The translations under genes and the position numbers were made by a program. From Spartobacteria bacterium (GTDB lineage Bacteria; Verrucomicrobiota; Verrucomicrobiia; Chthoniobacterales; UBA10450), in the NCBI GenBank assembly GCA_003169975.1, contig PNAA01000022.1, forward strand, positions 1-64,000: a DNA stretch of 64,000 nucleotides, given 5' to 3'. The notes below the pieces were generated by a model. The model was not told the origin of the DNA, did not search any database, and was given only the letters and a program-made list of their open reading frames with translations. Of the stretch, positions 56,919 through 64,000 are shown piece by piece. The first letter of the stretch is position 1; each line of letters opens with the position of its first letter.

Positions 56919-57806
56919 ATGCGCGCCGGAAAATTCCTGCTTCTCCTTTTCCTTCTCGCGACCGCCAGCCTGACGAGTGGCGCTTCGCTCCCTTTTCGAA
57001 CGGTCTTCCAGGGGCGCGAAAAGTTTGACCGGCTGGTGGCGCAGGCGCAGGCGAACGATTGGAAATCGCTGCCCATTGGGGAGCGGACCGCGGCGGTCGG
57101 CCGCGCGCTGGTCGGGACGCGCTACAAATCTTTCACCCTCGAAATCGACGACCGGGTCGAGGCGCCCTCCGCAAATTTCAATGGGATGGATTGCTGGACG
57201 TTTTTCGAGATCGCGCTCGGCTTTGCCCGCATGCTCGATGAACCGCAAGCACAGTGGACCCCCGCGACGTTGCTCCACTATATCGAACTCGATCGCTACC
57301 GCGGAGGTCAGTGCACCGGCGGGTATCTTTCCCGGTTGCATTACCTTGAGGACTGGCTCGCGGATAACGATCAGCGCGGCCTGGTCAAAGATCTCACCCG
57401 GGATCTCGGCGGCGTGCGCGCCAATCACGCCGCGCAGGAGATGACGTTCGGATGGCGGCATTATCGTTATCTAAAAGCGAACCCGGCCCTGCTCGCACCG
57501 CTGGGCCGGATGGAAGCGAGAGTTAGTGCGCGGCCGCTCTACCAGATTCCAAAGAACCGCGTGGCCCGAATCGAATCCAGGCTGAAAAGCGGCGATATCA
57601 TTGGCATCGTGTCGCGCGATCGACCGGGGCTTTATTCGACGTCGCACGTCGGTCTGGTCTACCGAACGGCGGACGGCGTCCTGCATTTCATGCACGCCTC
57701 ATCACCGCGAAACTATGGGCGAGTGGTGATCGATTCGCGGCTTTCGAGTTATCTCTACCGCTATGGCACCGATACTGGAATTCTCGTCGCGCGGCCGCAG
57801 CGCTAA
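56919..57806 (+). CDS. DUF1460 family protein (putative N-acetylmuramoyl-L-alanine amidase-like), secreted
   Basis: A 295-aa protein with a signal peptide (RAGKFLLLLFLLATASLTSG) and the DUF1460 domain of the NlpC/P60 clan: NFNGMDCWTFFEIALGFARM holds the likely catalytic Cys, YLSRLHYLEDWLADN follows, and YSTSHVGLVYRTADGVLHF holds the likely His. A structurally known Bacteroides relative is a muropeptide amidase/endopeptidase. It probably trims cell-wall peptides. Its end overlaps a convergent HPr-like gene by 4 nt. Confidence 0.82.
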   Translation: MRAGKFLLLLFLLATASLTSGASLPFRTVFQGREKFDRLVAQAQANDWKSLPIGERTAAVGRALVGTRYKSFTLEIDDRVEAPSANFNGMDCWTFFEIALGFARMLDEPQAQWTPATLLHYIELDRYRGGQCTGGYLSRLHYLEDWLADNDQRGLVKDLTRDLGGVRANHAAQEMTFGWRHYRYLKANPALLAPLGRMEARVSARPLYQIPKNRVARIESRLKSGDIIGIVSRDRPGLYSTSHVGLVYRTADGVLHFMHASSPRNYGRVVIDSRLSSYLYRYGTDTGILVARPQR

Positions 57807-58105
57807 TCGTCGTAATCAGGGAGCTCTTTGACGAGCCTGGCAAGTCGCTCCACGGCTTCTTCGGCGTCAGTGCCATCCGCTTCCAGGGTGGCGACCGTGC
57901 CGCAGTCGAGGTTTGCGCGCATCACATCGATCAGACTCAACGCTGAAAATCGGCCGGCCGCCGTCACAACCCAGATTTCCGAGCGGAACGCATTAGCGCG
58001 GCGAACGAATTGGGCCGCCGGGCGCGCGTGCAAGCCAAGCTTGTTGACGATCGTTATCTGTTGAGAGGCATGCACGGCTTCACGCCGGGAGTGGACCATT
58101 AACAT
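57803..58105 (-). CDS. HPr-like phosphocarrier protein (copy 1)
   Basis: A 100-aa HPr-fold protein: the phosphorylatable His is in NKLGLHARPAAQFVRRANAF near residue 26, and the Ser46-type region is FSALSLIDVMRANLDCGTVA, where a Ser is kept but the context differs from HPr. Such proteins accept phosphate from EI of the PTS. It is the last gene of the ABC transporter operon, 3 bp after the permease, and there is no EI or EII gene in the window. Its role is probably regulatory. A related copy is at 63249. Confidence 0.82.
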   Translation of the reverse strand: MLMVHSRREAVHASQQITIVNKLGLHARPAAQFVRRANAFRSEIWVVTAAGRFSALSLIDVMRANLDCGTVATLEADGTDAEEAVERLARLVKELPDYDD

Positions 58106-58108
58106 CGG

Positions 58109-58879
58109 CTATTGGCTGGCGCCGGTGCCCCAGCGTCGATGAAGGAACTGCTCGATCGGCGAAAAGAAAATCTTATCTGCAAGCAAGCCGATGACAACGA
58201 TTATCACCATGATGCCGATGACCTGGTCCATGGCTTGCTGCTCGCGTCCGAAGTGCAGGAGCTGGCCAAGACCAAACCCGGTCAGAATGGTGACGAAAAT
58301 TTCTGCTGCCATCAAGGATCGCCAGGCGAAGGCCCACCCTTGCTTCATCCCGCTCACAACAAACGGCAGCGCCGCAGGCAGAATAACTTTCAACCATAGG
58401 TGCATGTTTTTTGAACCCATGGTGAGGGCGGCACGGCGGAAAATTGGCGGAACGTTGCGCACGCCGGTATCAGTGGCAATGACGACCGACCACAAGGTGC
58501 CCATGACCACGACAAACAACATCGCGGCCTCAGTTTGTCCGAACCACAGAAGCGCAAGCGGCACCCAGCAAACACTTGGGAGCGTTTGTAAGCCAAGCGA
58601 CAGTGTCCCAACGGTATCCTGCAGTACATTCCAGCGGGCGGTTAACAACCCCAAGGGTAAACCAAAAATAATACCTATGACGTAGCCGATCAACAGACGG
58701 CGCATGGTAATAAGGGTGGCCTGTCCCAACGTTCCGTCTCCAGCGGCACCGCGCAAATAATTCGCAACGGAAGCAGGAGAAGGCACCAGCACAGGTGACC
58801 AAATATGCGCGTCATAAAGCAGCTGCCAAAGGATGATCAAACCACCGAAAAAGGCGGCCGCACTCGCAAATCGTTTCAT
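58109..58879 (-). CDS. ABC transporter permease (SsuC/TauC type)
   Basis: A 256-aa permease with about six helices and the EAA loop typical of nitrate/sulfonate/taurine transporters (RRAALTMGSKNMHLWLKVIL then PAALPFVVSGMKQGWAFAWR). It starts in a 4-nt overlap with the upstream ATPase gene, so expression is coupled. No CCTAACGA words are found in this or any gene to the right. Confidence 0.9.
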   Translation of the reverse strand: MKRFASAAAFFGGLIILWQLLYDAHIWSPVLVPSPASVANYLRGAAGDGTLGQATLITMRRLLIGYVIGIIFGLPLGLLTARWNVLQDTVGTLSLGLQTLPSVCWVPLALLWFGQTEAAMLFVVVMGTLWSVVIATDTGVRNVPPIFRRAALTMGSKNMHLWLKVILPAALPFVVSGMKQGWAFAWRSLMAAEIFVTILTGFGLGQLLHFGREQQAMDQVIGIMVIIVVIGLLADKIFFSPIEQFLHRRWGTGASQ

Positions 58880-59727
58880 TCCGCTACTTCTCCTTCCGTT
58901 TTAGTAAAGCCCTTTAGGGAGCGCATGATCCGACCGGCGTAACCAGCGAGATCAACGCTGTTAATGTCGCGCGGACGCGGCAACTCGATCGTGAACTCTT
59001 CCTGGACGCGTCCTGGATGAGGCGAAAAGAGAAGCACTCGATCGCCCAGGCACGCGGCTTCGCGGACGTTATGGGTAACAAAGACGATCGTTTTGTTTCG
59101 CGCCTTCCAGATTCGCTGGATATCGCCGTAAAGCTGCTCGCGGGTTAGCGCGTCAAGCGCCGCGAACGGTTCGTCCATCAACAACACCCTTGGGTTCGGA
59201 GCGAGCGCGCGGGCCAAAGCGACACGCTGTTTCATGCCCCCCGATAGCTCGTGAATATTCGCATGCTCGAATCGAGTTAGCCCGACAAGCTCGAGATAGT
59301 ACTTCGCCACATCGAGGCGATCCTTATCTCGGAGACCCGGCTTTAATTTCAAACCAAAGAGCACGTTGCCTAGGACGTCGAGCCATGGGAAGAGCGCCGC
59401 TTCCTGGAACATGACAAGCCGTTCTCTTCCCGGCCCAGTCACTGGTTTCCCATTCGCCATCACTGATCCGCTGTCCGGCTTTTCCAGCCCGGCAATGATG
59501 TTGAGCAAGGTGGACTTCCCGCAACCGCTCGCGCCGACGAGACAAACGAATTCGCCTTCGCTGACTTTCAAGCTCACGCGGTCGAGCGCCTGCACCGTTC
59601 CAGTTGCGGTCTTGAAACTCTTCGAAACGCTCTCGATCGCGAGTTTGATTGGCGCGACAATTTCTAATTCCTCTTTCGCCGAAGAGGTGACTCTGGAATG
59701 CCAGGGAATAACGTGCGTGATATACAT
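58876..59727 (-). CDS. ABC transporter ATP-binding protein (SsuB/TauB type)
   Basis: A 283-aa ATPase with Walker A GASGCGKSTLLNIIAG near residue 65, the Q-loop MFQEAALFPWLDVLGNV, signature ELSGGMKQRVALARAL, Walker B VLLMDEPFAALD and H-loop FVTHNVREAACLGD. The N-terminal ~25 residues precede the conserved KLAIESVSKSF start and may be non-native. The Q-loop 'LFPWLDV' is typical of the nitrate/sulfonate/taurine class. It lies 39 bp after the binding protein gene. Confidence 0.92.
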   Translation of the reverse strand: MYITHVIPWHSRVTSSAKEELEIVAPIKLAIESVSKSFKTATGTVQALDRVSLKVSEGEFVCLVGASGCGKSTLLNIIAGLEKPDSGSVMANGKPVTGPGRERLVMFQEAALFPWLDVLGNVLFGLKLKPGLRDKDRLDVAKYYLELVGLTRFEHANIHELSGGMKQRVALARALAPNPRVLLMDEPFAALDALTREQLYGDIQRIWKARNKTIVFVTHNVREAACLGDRVLLFSPHPGRVQEEFTIELPRPRDINSVDLAGYAGRIMRSLKGFTKTEGEVAE

Positions 59728-59766
59728 GCAGGAAATGAGGAGCTGTCGTTTCGATTAAGGAGTGTA

Positions 59767-60735
59767 CTAAAACGTTTCGATGAGCTTCGAAGTGTCGGTT
59801 GAACCTTTCAGGAAGCCGGCATCTTTCCCCTCCTGCACTGCTTTCTTGATCAGAGCCGGTGAGACTTCGGTTGTGAGTTTTATTCTATTCAAGGATCGCG
59901 TGACGGTGTCTGGCGGCACGTCCGTCTTGGTTTCTGCCTTCAACTCGTCCACCAATAACTTCTGCGCTTCGTCTGGGTGGGATTGAATCCACTGTGTGAG
60001 TTCCGTATTTGCCGCCGCAATCTTTTTCGCGAGATCGCGGTGATCCTTAAGAAATTTCACGCTCGAAACGAGCCAGGTGGTGATGACGTCTTTGTCCTCG
60101 AGAAACACCTTGCCATTGGCGTCCTTTTCGAGTCGGGTTACCCAAGGCTCGACGGTCCAGACCGCATCGACGCTTCCGCTTTGGAACAACGGCAACTGAT
60201 CCGGGTTAGCCGTTGGAACAACCAACACATCGCCCCCTGTTTGCGTGATGTTGAACCCCTGGGCCTTTAGCCAGGCCCGGCACGAGATATCCTGCGTGTT
60301 ACCCATTTGCGGCGTCGCGACTTTCTTGCCCCGGAAATCCGCCGGCGTTTTTATCCCGCCATCCGGCCTGACGATGAGAGCCGCTCCGCCATTTGCTGCG
60401 CCCGAGATCACGCGGATCTCTTCGCCTTTCGACTTGAAATGCGCGTTGAGCGCAGGGCCCTGACCGACGTAGGTCACATCGAGTGACCCAGCGAAGATCG
60501 CTTCCATCGCGGAAGGTCCGGCGTTGTAAGTGAACCACTGAATTTCGACGTTCGGCCCGAGCCGTTGTTCGAACCACCCTTTGCCTTGACGCGAAAGTGC
60601 GTGAGCAATGACGCCTTGGGCGTGGGTAATGTTCGGAAAATGCCCGAAGCGGATTGTGGTTTTCTCTTCGGCGTTTAGACTCGTCGCGCAAAGGGTTGCT
60701 GCGCCGATGAGTGCTGCGAGTGTGTATAGTCTCAT
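59767..60735 (-). CDS. Periplasmic substrate-binding protein of sulfonate/taurine-type ABC transporter
   Basis: A 322-aa protein with a signal peptide (MRLYTLAALIGAATLCATSL ending at NAEE) and the SsuA/TauA/NMT1 fold: IRFGHFPNITHAQGVIAHAL, NAGPSAMEAIFAGSLDVTYV, GQGPALNAHF and VDAVWTVEPWVTRLEKD. It delivers an alkanesulfonate or similar oxyanion to the permease. The substrate is inferred from the Rrf2/YezD context. The ATG at 60735 gives a canonical signal peptide. Confidence 0.88.
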   Translation of the reverse strand: MRLYTLAALIGAATLCATSLNAEEKTTIRFGHFPNITHAQGVIAHALSRQGKGWFEQRLGPNVEIQWFTYNAGPSAMEAIFAGSLDVTYVGQGPALNAHFKSKGEEIRVISGAANGGAALIVRPDGGIKTPADFRGKKVATPQMGNTQDISCRAWLKAQGFNITQTGGDVLVVPTANPDQLPLFQSGSVDAVWTVEPWVTRLEKDANGKVFLEDKDVITTWLVSSVKFLKDHRDLAKKIAAANTELTQWIQSHPDEAQKLLVDELKAETKTDVPPDTVTRSLNRIKLTTEVSPALIKKAVQEGKDAGFLKGSTDTSKLIETF

Positions 60736-60843
60736 AGGTTTGATCTTTAGAAGCTGAATGCGGTTGTGAAGCACCCGAGGTCGGACATGGTCATCCGGAG
60801 CACGAGTTACTATCGCGACAGAAAAGTTCTTCAGTCTCTTAGG

Positions 60844-62292
60844 CTAGAACATTAGCTGGAGGCGCAGGATGACTTCGTCGAACTGGTCATTGCCAAAGGT
60901 CGGGTTGGCAGCGCGAAGGTCGGACCAGGTGTGCACGTAGTTAGCCATTACTTTGAGAGAATCCCCGTGAATGTAGTAGTTGAGGCCGCCGGTAACGGAG
61001 TGGATCCCGTCGTTCGGAACTTGCGCCGGGTCGAGCTCTTCCCAGCGGACCGCTGCCTGGAACTTTTTCGGGATGATAAAGTAACTGCCTTGCACGTACC
61101 AGCCACTCGGACTGAAGTCGGCAAAGCCGGGGGCCACCCCGTTCACGGTCCGGCCGTTGACATCTTCGGAGATATACTCGCCGATGAGATCAAAGGGACC
61201 GATGTTTAACCAAGCGTCCAGGCTCCAGGCCGTTCGTTCGGCCGCGCCCGGCAGCGTGTACGCTGCGAGTGAGCCGTCAGTGTTGACCTTCAAGTTACCC
61301 GAGGGGGAGATGATCGTTCCGGCATCGTCGCGGCTGTTCATGACATCGCCGCCCAGCTTCAGGCTCGCCTCCTGGCCTAATAACTTGCCGCTGAACGGCA
61401 GCAATTCCAGCCGGCCGACATACATGAAGTTGTTGTTATCATTGGTGTTGACGTTGCGGCCGTTGCCGTTAAAGACGCCAGCGTAGTAGGTCACCAAGTC
61501 CTTCTCCTGCGGCCACAGATTGGCCAGTGGCTTGCCCCAAAGTTGCACTCCGACCTGGCGCTCCGGCGTGAGGGCACCGGTGGGCAGACTGCGCTCGATC
61601 ATGATGAGCTTGGGATCGGGCGTCAATTGCTCCAGACCAAAGGGCGCTTTCCATTGCCCCACCTTGATGTTCGCTTCCGGAATCCCGTGCCAGTTAATGA
61701 AGACGTCGGTCGCGGAAAACTCCGTCCGCGTCGAATTGGTCACCGTCGTCGTCTTGCCGGTTGTCGTACTGACCGACTTCAACGCCGTGATCGCAGAGTC
61801 GCTTTGCTCAAAGTCGCCTTCGACCTTGAAGTCGAACTGCTCGGCAAAATCACCGCTCAGGTTGATGCGCGCACGGCGCAGACGAAAACGGTCTTTCAGC
61901 CCGCTCAAGCCGAATCGCCCTTCGAAGGCCGAGACATCGCCATCTTCGAAGTTCGCCTGGATATATCCGCCTAGCGTCAGCTTGTATTCCGGGCCGCCCG
62001 GAGAGACGTAGACCGGCGGCTTCTCTTCGGCAGCGACGCCCTTGTCGACATACCCTTTGCCATCGGAAGTGACTCTCGTTTTGCTCTCCGGCCCAAATTC
62101 AGGCGCAAACGGGGAGCGCTTCTTTAAGGTGCTGACTTCCTGTTCCAACTCGGCATTGCGCGTTTGCAATTGATCGACCGCGCGTTCGAGCTTCTCAATT
62201 CGTTGGGTTTCGCTGGATGAGGTTTGCGCAGCGAGCGGTTGCAACGCAAGCAACACGAGTGGAAGGGCGGCAATAAGGGTGATTTTTTTCAT
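60844..62292 (-). CDS. Outer-membrane porin (OprP/OprO-like, phosphate-selective porin family)
   Basis: A 482-aa protein with a signal peptide (KKITLIAALPLVLLALQPLA ending AQ), an N-terminal coiled coil (RIEKLERAVDQLQTRNAELE) that may trimerise, and a beta-barrel of the porin O/P family: LRRARINLSGDFAEQFDFKV, WKAPFGLEQLTPDPKL and ending FDEVILRLQLMF with the terminal Phe. It would let the anionic nutrient cross the outer membrane for the ABC transporter. It follows yezD after 79 bp, which hold a likely regulator site. Confidence 0.9.
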   Translation of the reverse strand: MKKITLIAALPLVLLALQPLAAQTSSSETQRIEKLERAVDQLQTRNAELEQEVSTLKKRSPFAPEFGPESKTRVTSDGKGYVDKGVAAEEKPPVYVSPGGPEYKLTLGGYIQANFEDGDVSAFEGRFGLSGLKDRFRLRRARINLSGDFAEQFDFKVEGDFEQSDSAITALKSVSTTTGKTTTVTNSTRTEFSATDVFINWHGIPEANIKVGQWKAPFGLEQLTPDPKLIMIERSLPTGALTPERQVGVQLWGKPLANLWPQEKDLVTYYAGVFNGNGRNVNTNDNNNFMYVGRLELLPFSGKLLGQEASLKLGGDVMNSRDDAGTIISPSGNLKVNTDGSLAAYTLPGAAERTAWSLDAWLNIGPFDLIGEYISEDVNGRTVNGVAPGFADFSPSGWYVQGSYFIIPKKFQAAVRWEELDPAQVPNDGIHSVTGGLNYYIHGDSLKVMANYVHTWSDLRAANPTFGNDQFDEVILRLQLMF

Positions 62293-62309
62293 GAACGTTG
62301 GGTTTCTCC

Positions 62310-62371
62310 TTTGTTGTATCTACACAGTGTGAATGAGGGAACGGTCTCCGGTAGTCTGGTAGAACGCTCGA
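62310..62371 (-). promoter_or_regulatory. Leader of the porin gene with Rrf2-like operator candidate
   Basis: On the + strand GGTAGTCTGGTAG at 62350-62362 matches GATAGTCTAGTAG in the rrf2 promoter (63157-63169) at 11 of 13 positions. It lies about 60 bp upstream of the porin ATG. Rrf2 family regulators bind short, partly palindromic sites, so both may be operators of the regulator encoded upstream. Confidence 0.45.
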
Positions 62372-62590
62372 TTAGCTGATGGTTTCCTCCAGGGTGTCTG
62401 GTTGGTCAGAACTGCGGTTGATTGTAGGGCGAGAAGGTTCGGCCGGACTCCGGCTTTCGATTCTTGTTCTCTCGGTGCGCTCGATTTGCGTCACTTTGGA
62501 ATCATGAATCACGATCTGCACGACGCCGTAGCGGAGCGTTTCCACTTTTTCGCGCACGATCGAAAGCCAGTCAGGTTGGTCCTTGGTCAT
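62372..62590 (-). CDS. YezD-family (DUF2292) small protein
   Basis: A 72-aa protein whose first 45 residues (WLSIVREKVETLRYGVVQIV then HDSKVTQIERTERTRI) match the YezD/DUF2292 family of small proteins with the LRYGxVQIVIHDxxVxQIERTE pattern. Such genes are repeatedly found beside sulfur-assimilation and sulfonate-uptake genes. The C-terminal 25 residues are Ser/Pro-rich and lineage-specific. It overlaps the stop of rrf2 by 4 nt, so it is co-translated with the regulator. Confidence 0.85.
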   Translation of the reverse strand: MTKDQPDWLSIVREKVETLRYGVVQIVIHDSKVTQIERTERTRIESRSPAEPSRPTINRSSDQPDTLEETIS

Positions 62591-63132
62591 CGTTTCGTTA
62601 GTTCATTGCGGTTCAATGGCGTTGCGCCTTCTGCAGGCGGAAGGAGATCGTCGAGGCCGAACGAGCGGCGGCCGAAAGGCACGGGGATTTTGTCGCGGCG
62701 CATTTTGCGCAGAGTGATCTCGACAATTTGCGCGAGGGTGGAGCGATCGAGGATGCGCGCAATCGCGTTGCGCACGTCGAGCATCAGCATCCGCAGACCG
62801 CAGTGGGCTTCATCCGGGCAAGTGCAGCGATGGTAAGCTGTCTGGCTCACGCAGGCGATCGGCGCGAGCGGACCATCGAGCACGCGGATGACTGCGCCGA
62901 GCTTGATGCGCGCTGCTGGCTTAGCCAGGGAATAACCGCCGAACTTGCCCCGCTTAGTTTCGACGTAACCGGCGAGGCGCAGCTGAGTGAGGATTTGTTC
63001 GAGAAACTTAATGGGCAGTTTTTCTTTCGACGCCAATTCGGTCACTTGCAGCATCGGTCGGCCCAACTCCCGGGCGATGCCGAGATCGATCAGCGCTCGC
63101 AGGGCGTATTCGCTTCGTTTGGAAAGATTCAT
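62587..63132 (-). CDS. Rrf2-family transcriptional regulator (CymR-like)
   Basis: A 181-aa winged-helix regulator: MNLSKRSEYALRALIDLGIA, then TELASKEKLPIKFLEQILTQ, LRLAGYVETKRGKFGGYSLA and the linker ACVSQTAYHRCTCPDEAHCG. The CxC/C cluster near residues 93-111 resembles the Fe-S-type cysteines of some Rrf2 proteins but is more Cys-rich. CymR-like members repress sulfur uptake genes. The clustering with yezD, porin and sulfonate ABC genes suggests it controls this regulon and itself. Confidence 0.9.
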   Translation of the reverse strand: MNLSKRSEYALRALIDLGIARELGRPMLQVTELASKEKLPIKFLEQILTQLRLAGYVETKRGKFGGYSLAKPAARIKLGAVIRVLDGPLAPIACVSQTAYHRCTCPDEAHCGLRMLMLDVRNAIARILDRSTLAQIVEITLRKMRRDKIPVPFGRRSFGLDDLLPPAEGATPLNRNELTKR

Positions 63133-63149
63133 CTCTAGTCGTTGCAGTC

Positions 63150-63186
63150 GAGTTGCGATAGTCTAGTAGTCGAGTAGAGTTGTCAA
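63150..63186 (-). promoter_or_regulatory. Promoter and operator candidate of the rrf2 gene
   Basis: Reading the minus strand, TTGACA (63186-63181) is a perfect -35 box, followed after 17 bp by GACTAT (63163-63158) as a weak -10. The spacer holds two copies of TACTNGAC in tandem. The overlap of this repeat with the promoter suggests autorepression. Confidence 0.5.
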
Positions 63187-63248
63187 AGCATTTTTCGGCG
63201 GTCGAGAAGTTATTCCCCGATCGAGTTCGAAAAGAGCATAGTCCGCGC

Positions 63249-63599
63249 TCAATCGAGAGCTTCCCACCGGAGGCGTTGGGAGTTTTGCTTTCGGTTTTCC
63301 TCCCCCTTCTCCAGGAACATTGGCAGGCGGGCGATGCGCTCTACCGCCCGCCTCGCATCTGGACCTTCGGCTTCGAGCACGAATGTGTCGCCGCAATCAA
63401 GCCTAGCGAGCAATACTTCAAGGATACGGTCGGCCGGATACCGTTTGCCTTTGGCGTTGATGGTAACCGTGCTTTCGAACAATAGCACGCAGCTGACGAA
63501 TTCGGTGGCGGGCCGCGCGTGCAGGCCGTGTGCATTGAGCAGAGTCAATTCCCTGGTGATTCGTTCTATTTCAGGGCGCAAGTGGCGAAAGATGATCAT
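63249..63599 (-). CDS. HPr-like phosphocarrier protein (copy 2)
   Basis: A 116-aa HPr-fold protein with the active His in LNAHGLHARPATEFVSCVLL near residue 27 and GKRYPADRILEVLLARLDCG at the regulatory Ser46 region, where no Ser is present. The C-terminus is extended (MFLEKGEENRKQNSQRLRW). It shares the unusual LDCG segment with copy 1. No EI is nearby. It is 116 bp upstream of rrf2 on the same strand. Confidence 0.82.
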   Translation of the reverse strand: MIIFRHLRPEIERITRELTLLNAHGLHARPATEFVSCVLLFESTVTINAKGKRYPADRILEVLLARLDCGDTFVLEAEGPDARRAVERIARLPMFLEKGEENRKQNSQRLRWEALD

Positions 63600-63703: not shown

Positions 63704-63883
63704 TCAGGCGGAGATGGGCGAAGCGCCCGCGCAGCCCGGACCTGCCGTTCCTCTAACCAGCGCGGCCCCGATTTTCTCGCAAAGCGCGATCGCAGGAAAA
63801 ACGACGAGAGCGGCTGGGAGAGCCACCGTCCACAACACGATTGCCCCACCAAGCAGAACAGTTTCGGTCAAGATTGATTTCAT
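63704..63883 (-). CDS. Small single-span membrane protein
   Basis: A 59-aa protein starting at an ATG preceded by AAAGGAA 9-15 nt upstream. It has one or two hydrophobic segments (LLGGAIVLWTVALPAALVVF then PAIALCEKIGAALVRG). It lies upstream of HPr-like copy 2 on the same strand. The family is not recognised. The upstream region holds a degenerate match to the proposed Rrf2 site (GATTGTCTACTAC at 63898-63910, 10 of 13). Confidence 0.5.
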   Translation of the reverse strand: MKSILTETVLLGGAIVLWTVALPAALVVFPAIALCEKIGAALVRGTAGPGCAGASPISA

Positions 63884-64000
63884 ATTTTCATTCCTTTGAT
63901 TGTCTACTACATCAGTATGGATTCAATACTCTATCGTGCAAGTAGAGATTGCAAGCAATATTTTTCACAAATTTTTCAGGTGCGAAATTCCCCTCGGAAA

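Follow-up and report, generated by a model that had tools for sequence, protein, structure and literature searches.

A conserved HPr-family gene in an Rrf2-associated, SsuA-type importer operon of one family of soil Verrucomicrobiota and its possible regulatory role

The gene block and its two HPr-family proteins

The window, i.e., the whole stretch of 64,000 nucleotides that was analyzed, carries one minus-strand block at positions 57803-63599. In transcription order, the block comprises HPrB, rrf2, a yezD-like (DUF2292) gene, a porin gene, the genes for the substrate-binding protein (SBP), ATPase, and permease of an ABC importer, and HPrA. HPrB (63249..63599) is a divergent HPr-family protein identified by PF00381, a residue table, and a tree. 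It is followed by an Rrf2-family transcriptional regulator (62587..63132; PF02082, 118.9 bits), a YezD/OscA-like DUF2292 small protein (62372..62590; PF10055, 51.4 bits), and an outer-membrane porin of the Porin_O_P family (60844..62292; PF07396, 95.5 bits), so that Pfam bore out the Rrf2-yezD-porin neighborhood read in the initial annotation. The periplasmic SBP (59767..60774; PF13379) had been called sulfonate type, and it does exceed the cut-off of the SsuA-family model TIGR01728 (172.3 versus 163.5 bits). The ATPase (58876..59727) is of the SsuB/TauB/NtrC-D type by PF00005 (117 bits) and NCBIfam, and the permease (58109..58879) is of the SsuC/TauC/NtrB type by PF00528, with NCBIfam scores below the equivalog cut-offs. 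HPrA (57803..58105), the last gene, is an HPr-family phosphocarrier by PF00381, TIGR01003, and its AlphaFold model. Reading frames overlap between rrf2 and yezD and between the ATPase and permease genes, and 3 bases separate the permease stop codon from the start of HPrA, as first described. A small minus-strand open reading frame (ORF) of 59 amino acids, called at 63704..63883 and without a Pfam match, lies 5′ of HPrB and may open the HPrB unit as its first gene.

Both HPr-like genes proposed earlier belong to the HPr family. HPrA and HPrB scored 84.8 and 70.8 bits, respectively, against the Pfam PTS-HPr cut-off of 23, and 73 and 52.3 bits against the TIGR01003 cut-off of 47.9. The AlphaFold model of HPrA (pLDDT 89.5) has the HPr fold, an open-faced beta-sandwich, and its top Foldseek match in the PDB was E. 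coli HPr, with a TM-score of 0.95 by target and an rmsd of 0.9. The active-site histidine in its GLHARP context is present in HPrA, HPrB, and 38/38 operon HPr copies, and in E. coli numbering both His15 and Ser46 are found in all 38. With Ser46 in HPrA and hprK in the genome, HPrA has the features of an HprK-regulated HPr; the Crh-type replacement of the active histidine was not found in HPrA, which retains His15. HPrB retains His15 and has Arg46 in place of the serine, and therefore lacks the mark of an HprK-regulated HPr. Thus, the claim that one of the two proteins lacks the regulatory serine was correct for HPrB, while HPrA keeps the Ser46 equivalent.

The operon HPrs differ from canonical HPrs in helix 2, the surface on which partners dock in HPr complexes. 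Here, the region of residues 45 to 57 is changed from KSIMGLMMLAAGQ to xSLIDVLRANLDC, and residue 49 is Asp or Glu in 38/38 operon HPrs versus 0/48 canonical HPrs. The dN/dS of HPrA was ~0.04-0.15, which indicates purifying selection. A shared LDCG segment had been singled out as an unusual feature of the pair. Sequence checks found it, as well as GLHARP, in both proteins, but it is common across a wider clade of HPr paralogs, and we rejected a special meaning for it: the share of HPrs with Cys57 is 71% in the operon copies, 47% in the sister group, and 21% among other canonical HPrs. In a midpoint-rooted tree built from few alignment columns, one group (SH-aLRT of 99) united HPrB with the operon HPrs and with solo HPrs of the order's other families, and the housekeeping HPrs fell outside it. 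Among further HPr-like proteins of the window's family, those at L072, L073, L074, and L075 are without the standard GLHARP, the active histidine being missing in the last three, and at L052:7751-9838 an HPr domain is fused to an EI-like protein.

Conservation of HPrA with the importer

We sampled 83 genomes of the window's family and sorted the relatives of the SBP into two classes. Class I SBPs are ~70-79% identical, with Rrf2 upstream in most loci where the contig shows it, while class II SBPs are 55-65% identical and no Rrf2 was found nearby. Since loci were gathered partly via HPr matches, a separate SBP search was used to seek counter-examples. Among class I loci whose contig reached far enough past the permease to be testable, an HPr gene directly follows the permease gene in 39/40, spread over nine genera. 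None of the nine class II importers is followed by an HPr gene, and five of them adjoin the same AmiA-like gene. We therefore rejected chance adjacency for HPrA. The initial annotation had made its proposal depend on HPr genes recurring in orthologous clusters; this held for HPrA but not for HPrB, which has no counterpart there. In 34 of the 39 loci, the permease stop and HPr start overlap by 4 bases or 1 base. In the single exception (L100), the HPr gene lies elsewhere in the genome, divergent from an SLC13-type transporter.

The same association was seen by genome. The variant HPr occurs in 41/45 genomes with class I and in 2/38 without it (Fisher P of ~1e-16, which is not an independent-sample probability because the genomes are related). 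The four class I genomes without the variant are accounted for by contig ends (G016, G018, and G068) and a broken frame (G049, at L209). Of the two genomes that carry the variant HPr but do not have class I, one has the gene beside a porin remnant and the other beside an SLC13 gene. Searched against GTDB genomes with an HPrA profile, the same operon appeared only in close relatives; matches beyond these were housekeeping hprK-HPr-EI genes or solo HPrs.

In a handful of loci, the HPr gene is placed differently. It lies between the porin and SBP genes in L041, after the SBP gene in L070, and after a lone rrf2 gene in L071; in G023 (L040), HPr has been kept beside the porin remnant only. The HPrA frame is broken by a stop or frameshift at L107:9021-9248 and L209:3923-4104, reflecting either loss or assembly error. 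Within one genus, the variant HPr is divergent from an SLC13-type transporter made up of CitMHS and two TrkA_C domains (L053:7982-10253 and L065:7980-10329); G034, a genome of this genus, has an importer operon without HPr. The genome with the fused HPr domain (G027) is a class II genome. In another family of the order, solo HPrs adjoin unrelated genes, e.g., that for a KpsF/KdsD-like isomerase (named by eye), and we rejected the idea that the paralogs of the wider clade are linked to sulfur.

For HPrB, no counterpart was found at the equivalent place in same-genus relatives, implying that its adjacency is lineage specific, and a third HPr is absent from the three same-genus genomes that have the operon. 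The tree did not support a recent duplication of HPrA, or orthology to it, as the origin of HPrB, whose long branch falls near the solo HPrs (a placement with weak support). Extra copies of variant HPr do recur in the regulon, with G064 carrying three, one of them directly after an rrf2 gene. Within this regulon, HPrB has the appearance of a second HPr that is divergent and specific to its lineage. In two loci of same-genus relatives, an S30AE/RaiA-type ribosome-hibernation protein is encoded upstream of rrf2, at the place that HPrB takes in the window (L068:11463-11843 and L069:12005-12340).

Sulfur link, candidate operators, and the phosphorelay of the genome

Several family assignments point to sulfur: the SsuA-family SBP, Rrf2, DUF2292, and upstream sulfotransferases. 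Sulfotransferase genes recur 5′ of the operon (L004:3249-4094, L041, and L098), together with a neighboring family of unknown function. The nearest named model for the Rrf2 protein was CymR (NF047409), at 77.4 bits against a cut-off of 195, which supports membership in the Rrf2 superfamily only, and the DUF2292 protein matched the OscA sulfur-starvation model NF033785 weakly (31.5 versus a cut-off of 85). Neither SsuD (TIGR03565), the desulfonating enzyme that accompanies Ssu importers, nor the PAPS_reduct family (CysD/CysH type) had a match in the window genome (G000, a 4.47-Mb assembly that is 97% complete). Thus, both the standard sulfonate route and the standard sulfate-reduction route are unsupported. 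We use “sulfonate” as a family label only, and sulfur uptake is the function that these family-level matches suggest.

An inverted repeat, CTAST-N5-ASTAG, lies just 5′ of rrf2 in many class I loci, often in tandem copies ~30 bases apart, and was found in no class II locus. The enrichment 5′ of rrf2 is circular, since the motif was derived from those same regions. In the window, a perfect match at 63163..63177 precedes rrf2 by ~30-45 bases, and a second candidate Rrf2 operator with one mismatch (63904..63918) lies 5′ of the 59-amino-acid ORF, ~305-320 bases before HPrB. A weaker candidate copy, read by eye, follows at 63931-63945, ~27 bases beyond the second. The two matches compare with 0.49 expected, and at least two were obtained in 9/100 shuffles. 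With candidate operators before both rrf2 and HPrB, both HPr genes are likely members of the Rrf2 regulon.

As the initial annotation had noted, the window has no PTS enzymes: EI, HprK, EIIA_2, EIIA-man, and EIIC all lacked matches there. The genome encodes EI, HprK, and four EIIA_2 domains elsewhere. It has three HPr domains, namely, HPrA, HPrB, and a housekeeping HPr on contig 58 whose gene is directly flanked by hprK on one side and the EI gene on the other. No family match was obtained genome-wide for EIIA-man or for EIIC as represented by the PTS_EIIC family, while control searches were positive. The combination of EI, HprK, and EIIA_2 with unmatched EIIC and EIIA-man looks like a regulatory PTS. 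PTS chains that act in regulation and have no sugar permease occur widely, mostly with unknown targets.

Possible role of HPrA and comparison with known systems

We tentatively believe that HPrA is the dedicated regulatory HPr of an Rrf2-controlled operon of the sulfur-starvation type, most likely acting on the importer encoded with it. In such a model, sulfur limitation would cause Rrf2 to leave its operator, and the importer and HPrA would be produced together. HPrA would then receive phosphate on His15 through the chromosomal EI, with phosphoenolpyruvate (PEP) as the donor, on Ser46 through HprK, or on both. The changed docking helix may allow HPrA to bind outside the usual set of PTS partners, most likely to the ABC importer, and uptake would track the PEP/ATP state of the cell. 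With EI, HprK, and both phosphorylation sites present, control of uptake through phosphorylation is plausible. Taken together, these data suggest that the cells link sulfur uptake to an energy-signaling phosphorelay.

We favor the importer as the target because HPrA is coupled to the permease gene and because there is a documented case of PTS control over ABC transport. The class I and class II counts, the overlapping frames, the low dN/dS, the invariant phosphorylation sites, and the acidic residue 49 argue for this, as do the regulatory-looking PTS of the genome, with its EI, HprK, and EIIA_2, and the HPrs of the clade that lie off the importer (L053 and L065) beside an SLC13-type anion transporter. 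Against it stand the related solo HPrs beside unrelated genes in another family of the order and the uncertain substrate. HPrA may have a direct target other than the importer, given the varying gene position in L041, L070, and L071 and the remnant in G023. A narrower version, in which HPrA would regulate just one ABC transporter in the manner of a subunit, receive phosphate from the PTS on His and Ser, and directly tie sulfur uptake to PEP/ATP, we regard as credible yet doubtful.

Two other explanations also deserve weight in view of the variable gene position and the remnant in G023. HPrA might alter the general phosphorelay: made during sulfur starvation, it would compete for EI, HprK, and EIIA_2 with the housekeeping HPr and so report sulfur state to the PTS network. 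A genome with four EIIA_2 domains and one EI-HPr-HprK set would suit this, as would the genome in which HPr stands beside just the porin remnant, and substrate-tied operon variants of HPr are known, e.g., FPr of fructose transport, whose clade has been described (PMC2405797). We consider this somewhat unlikely, as the patch on which common PTS partners dock has been rewritten and competition of this kind would not need the tight coupling to the class I permease. Alternatively, HPrA or HPrB could modulate Rrf2, much as P-Ser-HPr acts with CcpA, and bring a carbon or energy input to sulfur-gene transcription. The variant HPr does accompany Rrf2-type operons and not the Rrf2-less class II, L071 is a simple rrf2-HPr pair, and HPrB lies upstream of rrf2. 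However, the tight overlap is with the permease gene rather than with rrf2, and no Rrf2 regulator is known to use an HPr co-factor, so we judge this unlikely. Finally, a passenger role for HPr is very improbable; here, a paralog that was copied beside the importer at some point would have been retained by collinearity with no sulfur-specific role. Synteny confined to one family, the equally constant AmiA-like neighbor, the solo relatives without a sulfur link, and the broken frames in L107 and L209 would fit, but the low dN/dS, the overlapping frames, the invariance of both phosphorylation sites and of the new residue pattern, and the absence of HPr from class II importers, five of which lie beside the same AmiA gene, do not.

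Several known systems are close to this one. HPrA resembles HPr (PtsH) of the bacterial PTS, a small phosphocarrier that normally serves in sugar-uptake control, in its fold, GLHARP motif, and Ser46, and E. coli HPr chains were the best matches of its profile; it differs from PtsH in lying in an importer operon, in its rewritten residues 45 to 57 with an acidic residue 49, and in grouping apart from the housekeeping hprK-HPr-EI copy. As specialized HPr paralogs with regulatory rather than sugar-transport roles, Crh and NPr are also parallels. Crh is without the active histidine, unlike HPrA with both His15 and Ser46, and neither Crh nor NPr is known from a sulfur operon. The SBP, the NitT/TauT-type ATPase and permease, Rrf2, and DUF2292 recall Ssu/Tau-type importers with a CymR-like Rrf2 and YezD/OscA, while the lack of an SsuD match in the window genome and the HPr in the operon set this system apart. 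In the literature searched, which lay mostly outside subscription journals, we found no description of a sulfur ABC operon that includes an HPr gene. In Rhizobium leguminosarum, PTSNtr, likewise a regulatory phosphorelay with an HPr-type carrier, controls ABC transport, and the NPr histidine and its phosphorylation are required (PMC3665714). There, one NPr serves several ABC systems, whereas here an HPr is encoded with one importer. Thus, paralogs of HPr are already known, as is ABC uptake under PTS control, and an HPr dedicated to one sulfur-type importer operon would be the new element. For a family of soil Verrucomicrobiota represented by metagenome-assembled genomes, a conserved HPr bound by gene order to one importer offers a testable target for a regulatory PTS and, if our model is true, a phosphorelay can be dedicated to sulfur, beyond carbon, nitrogen, or potassium.
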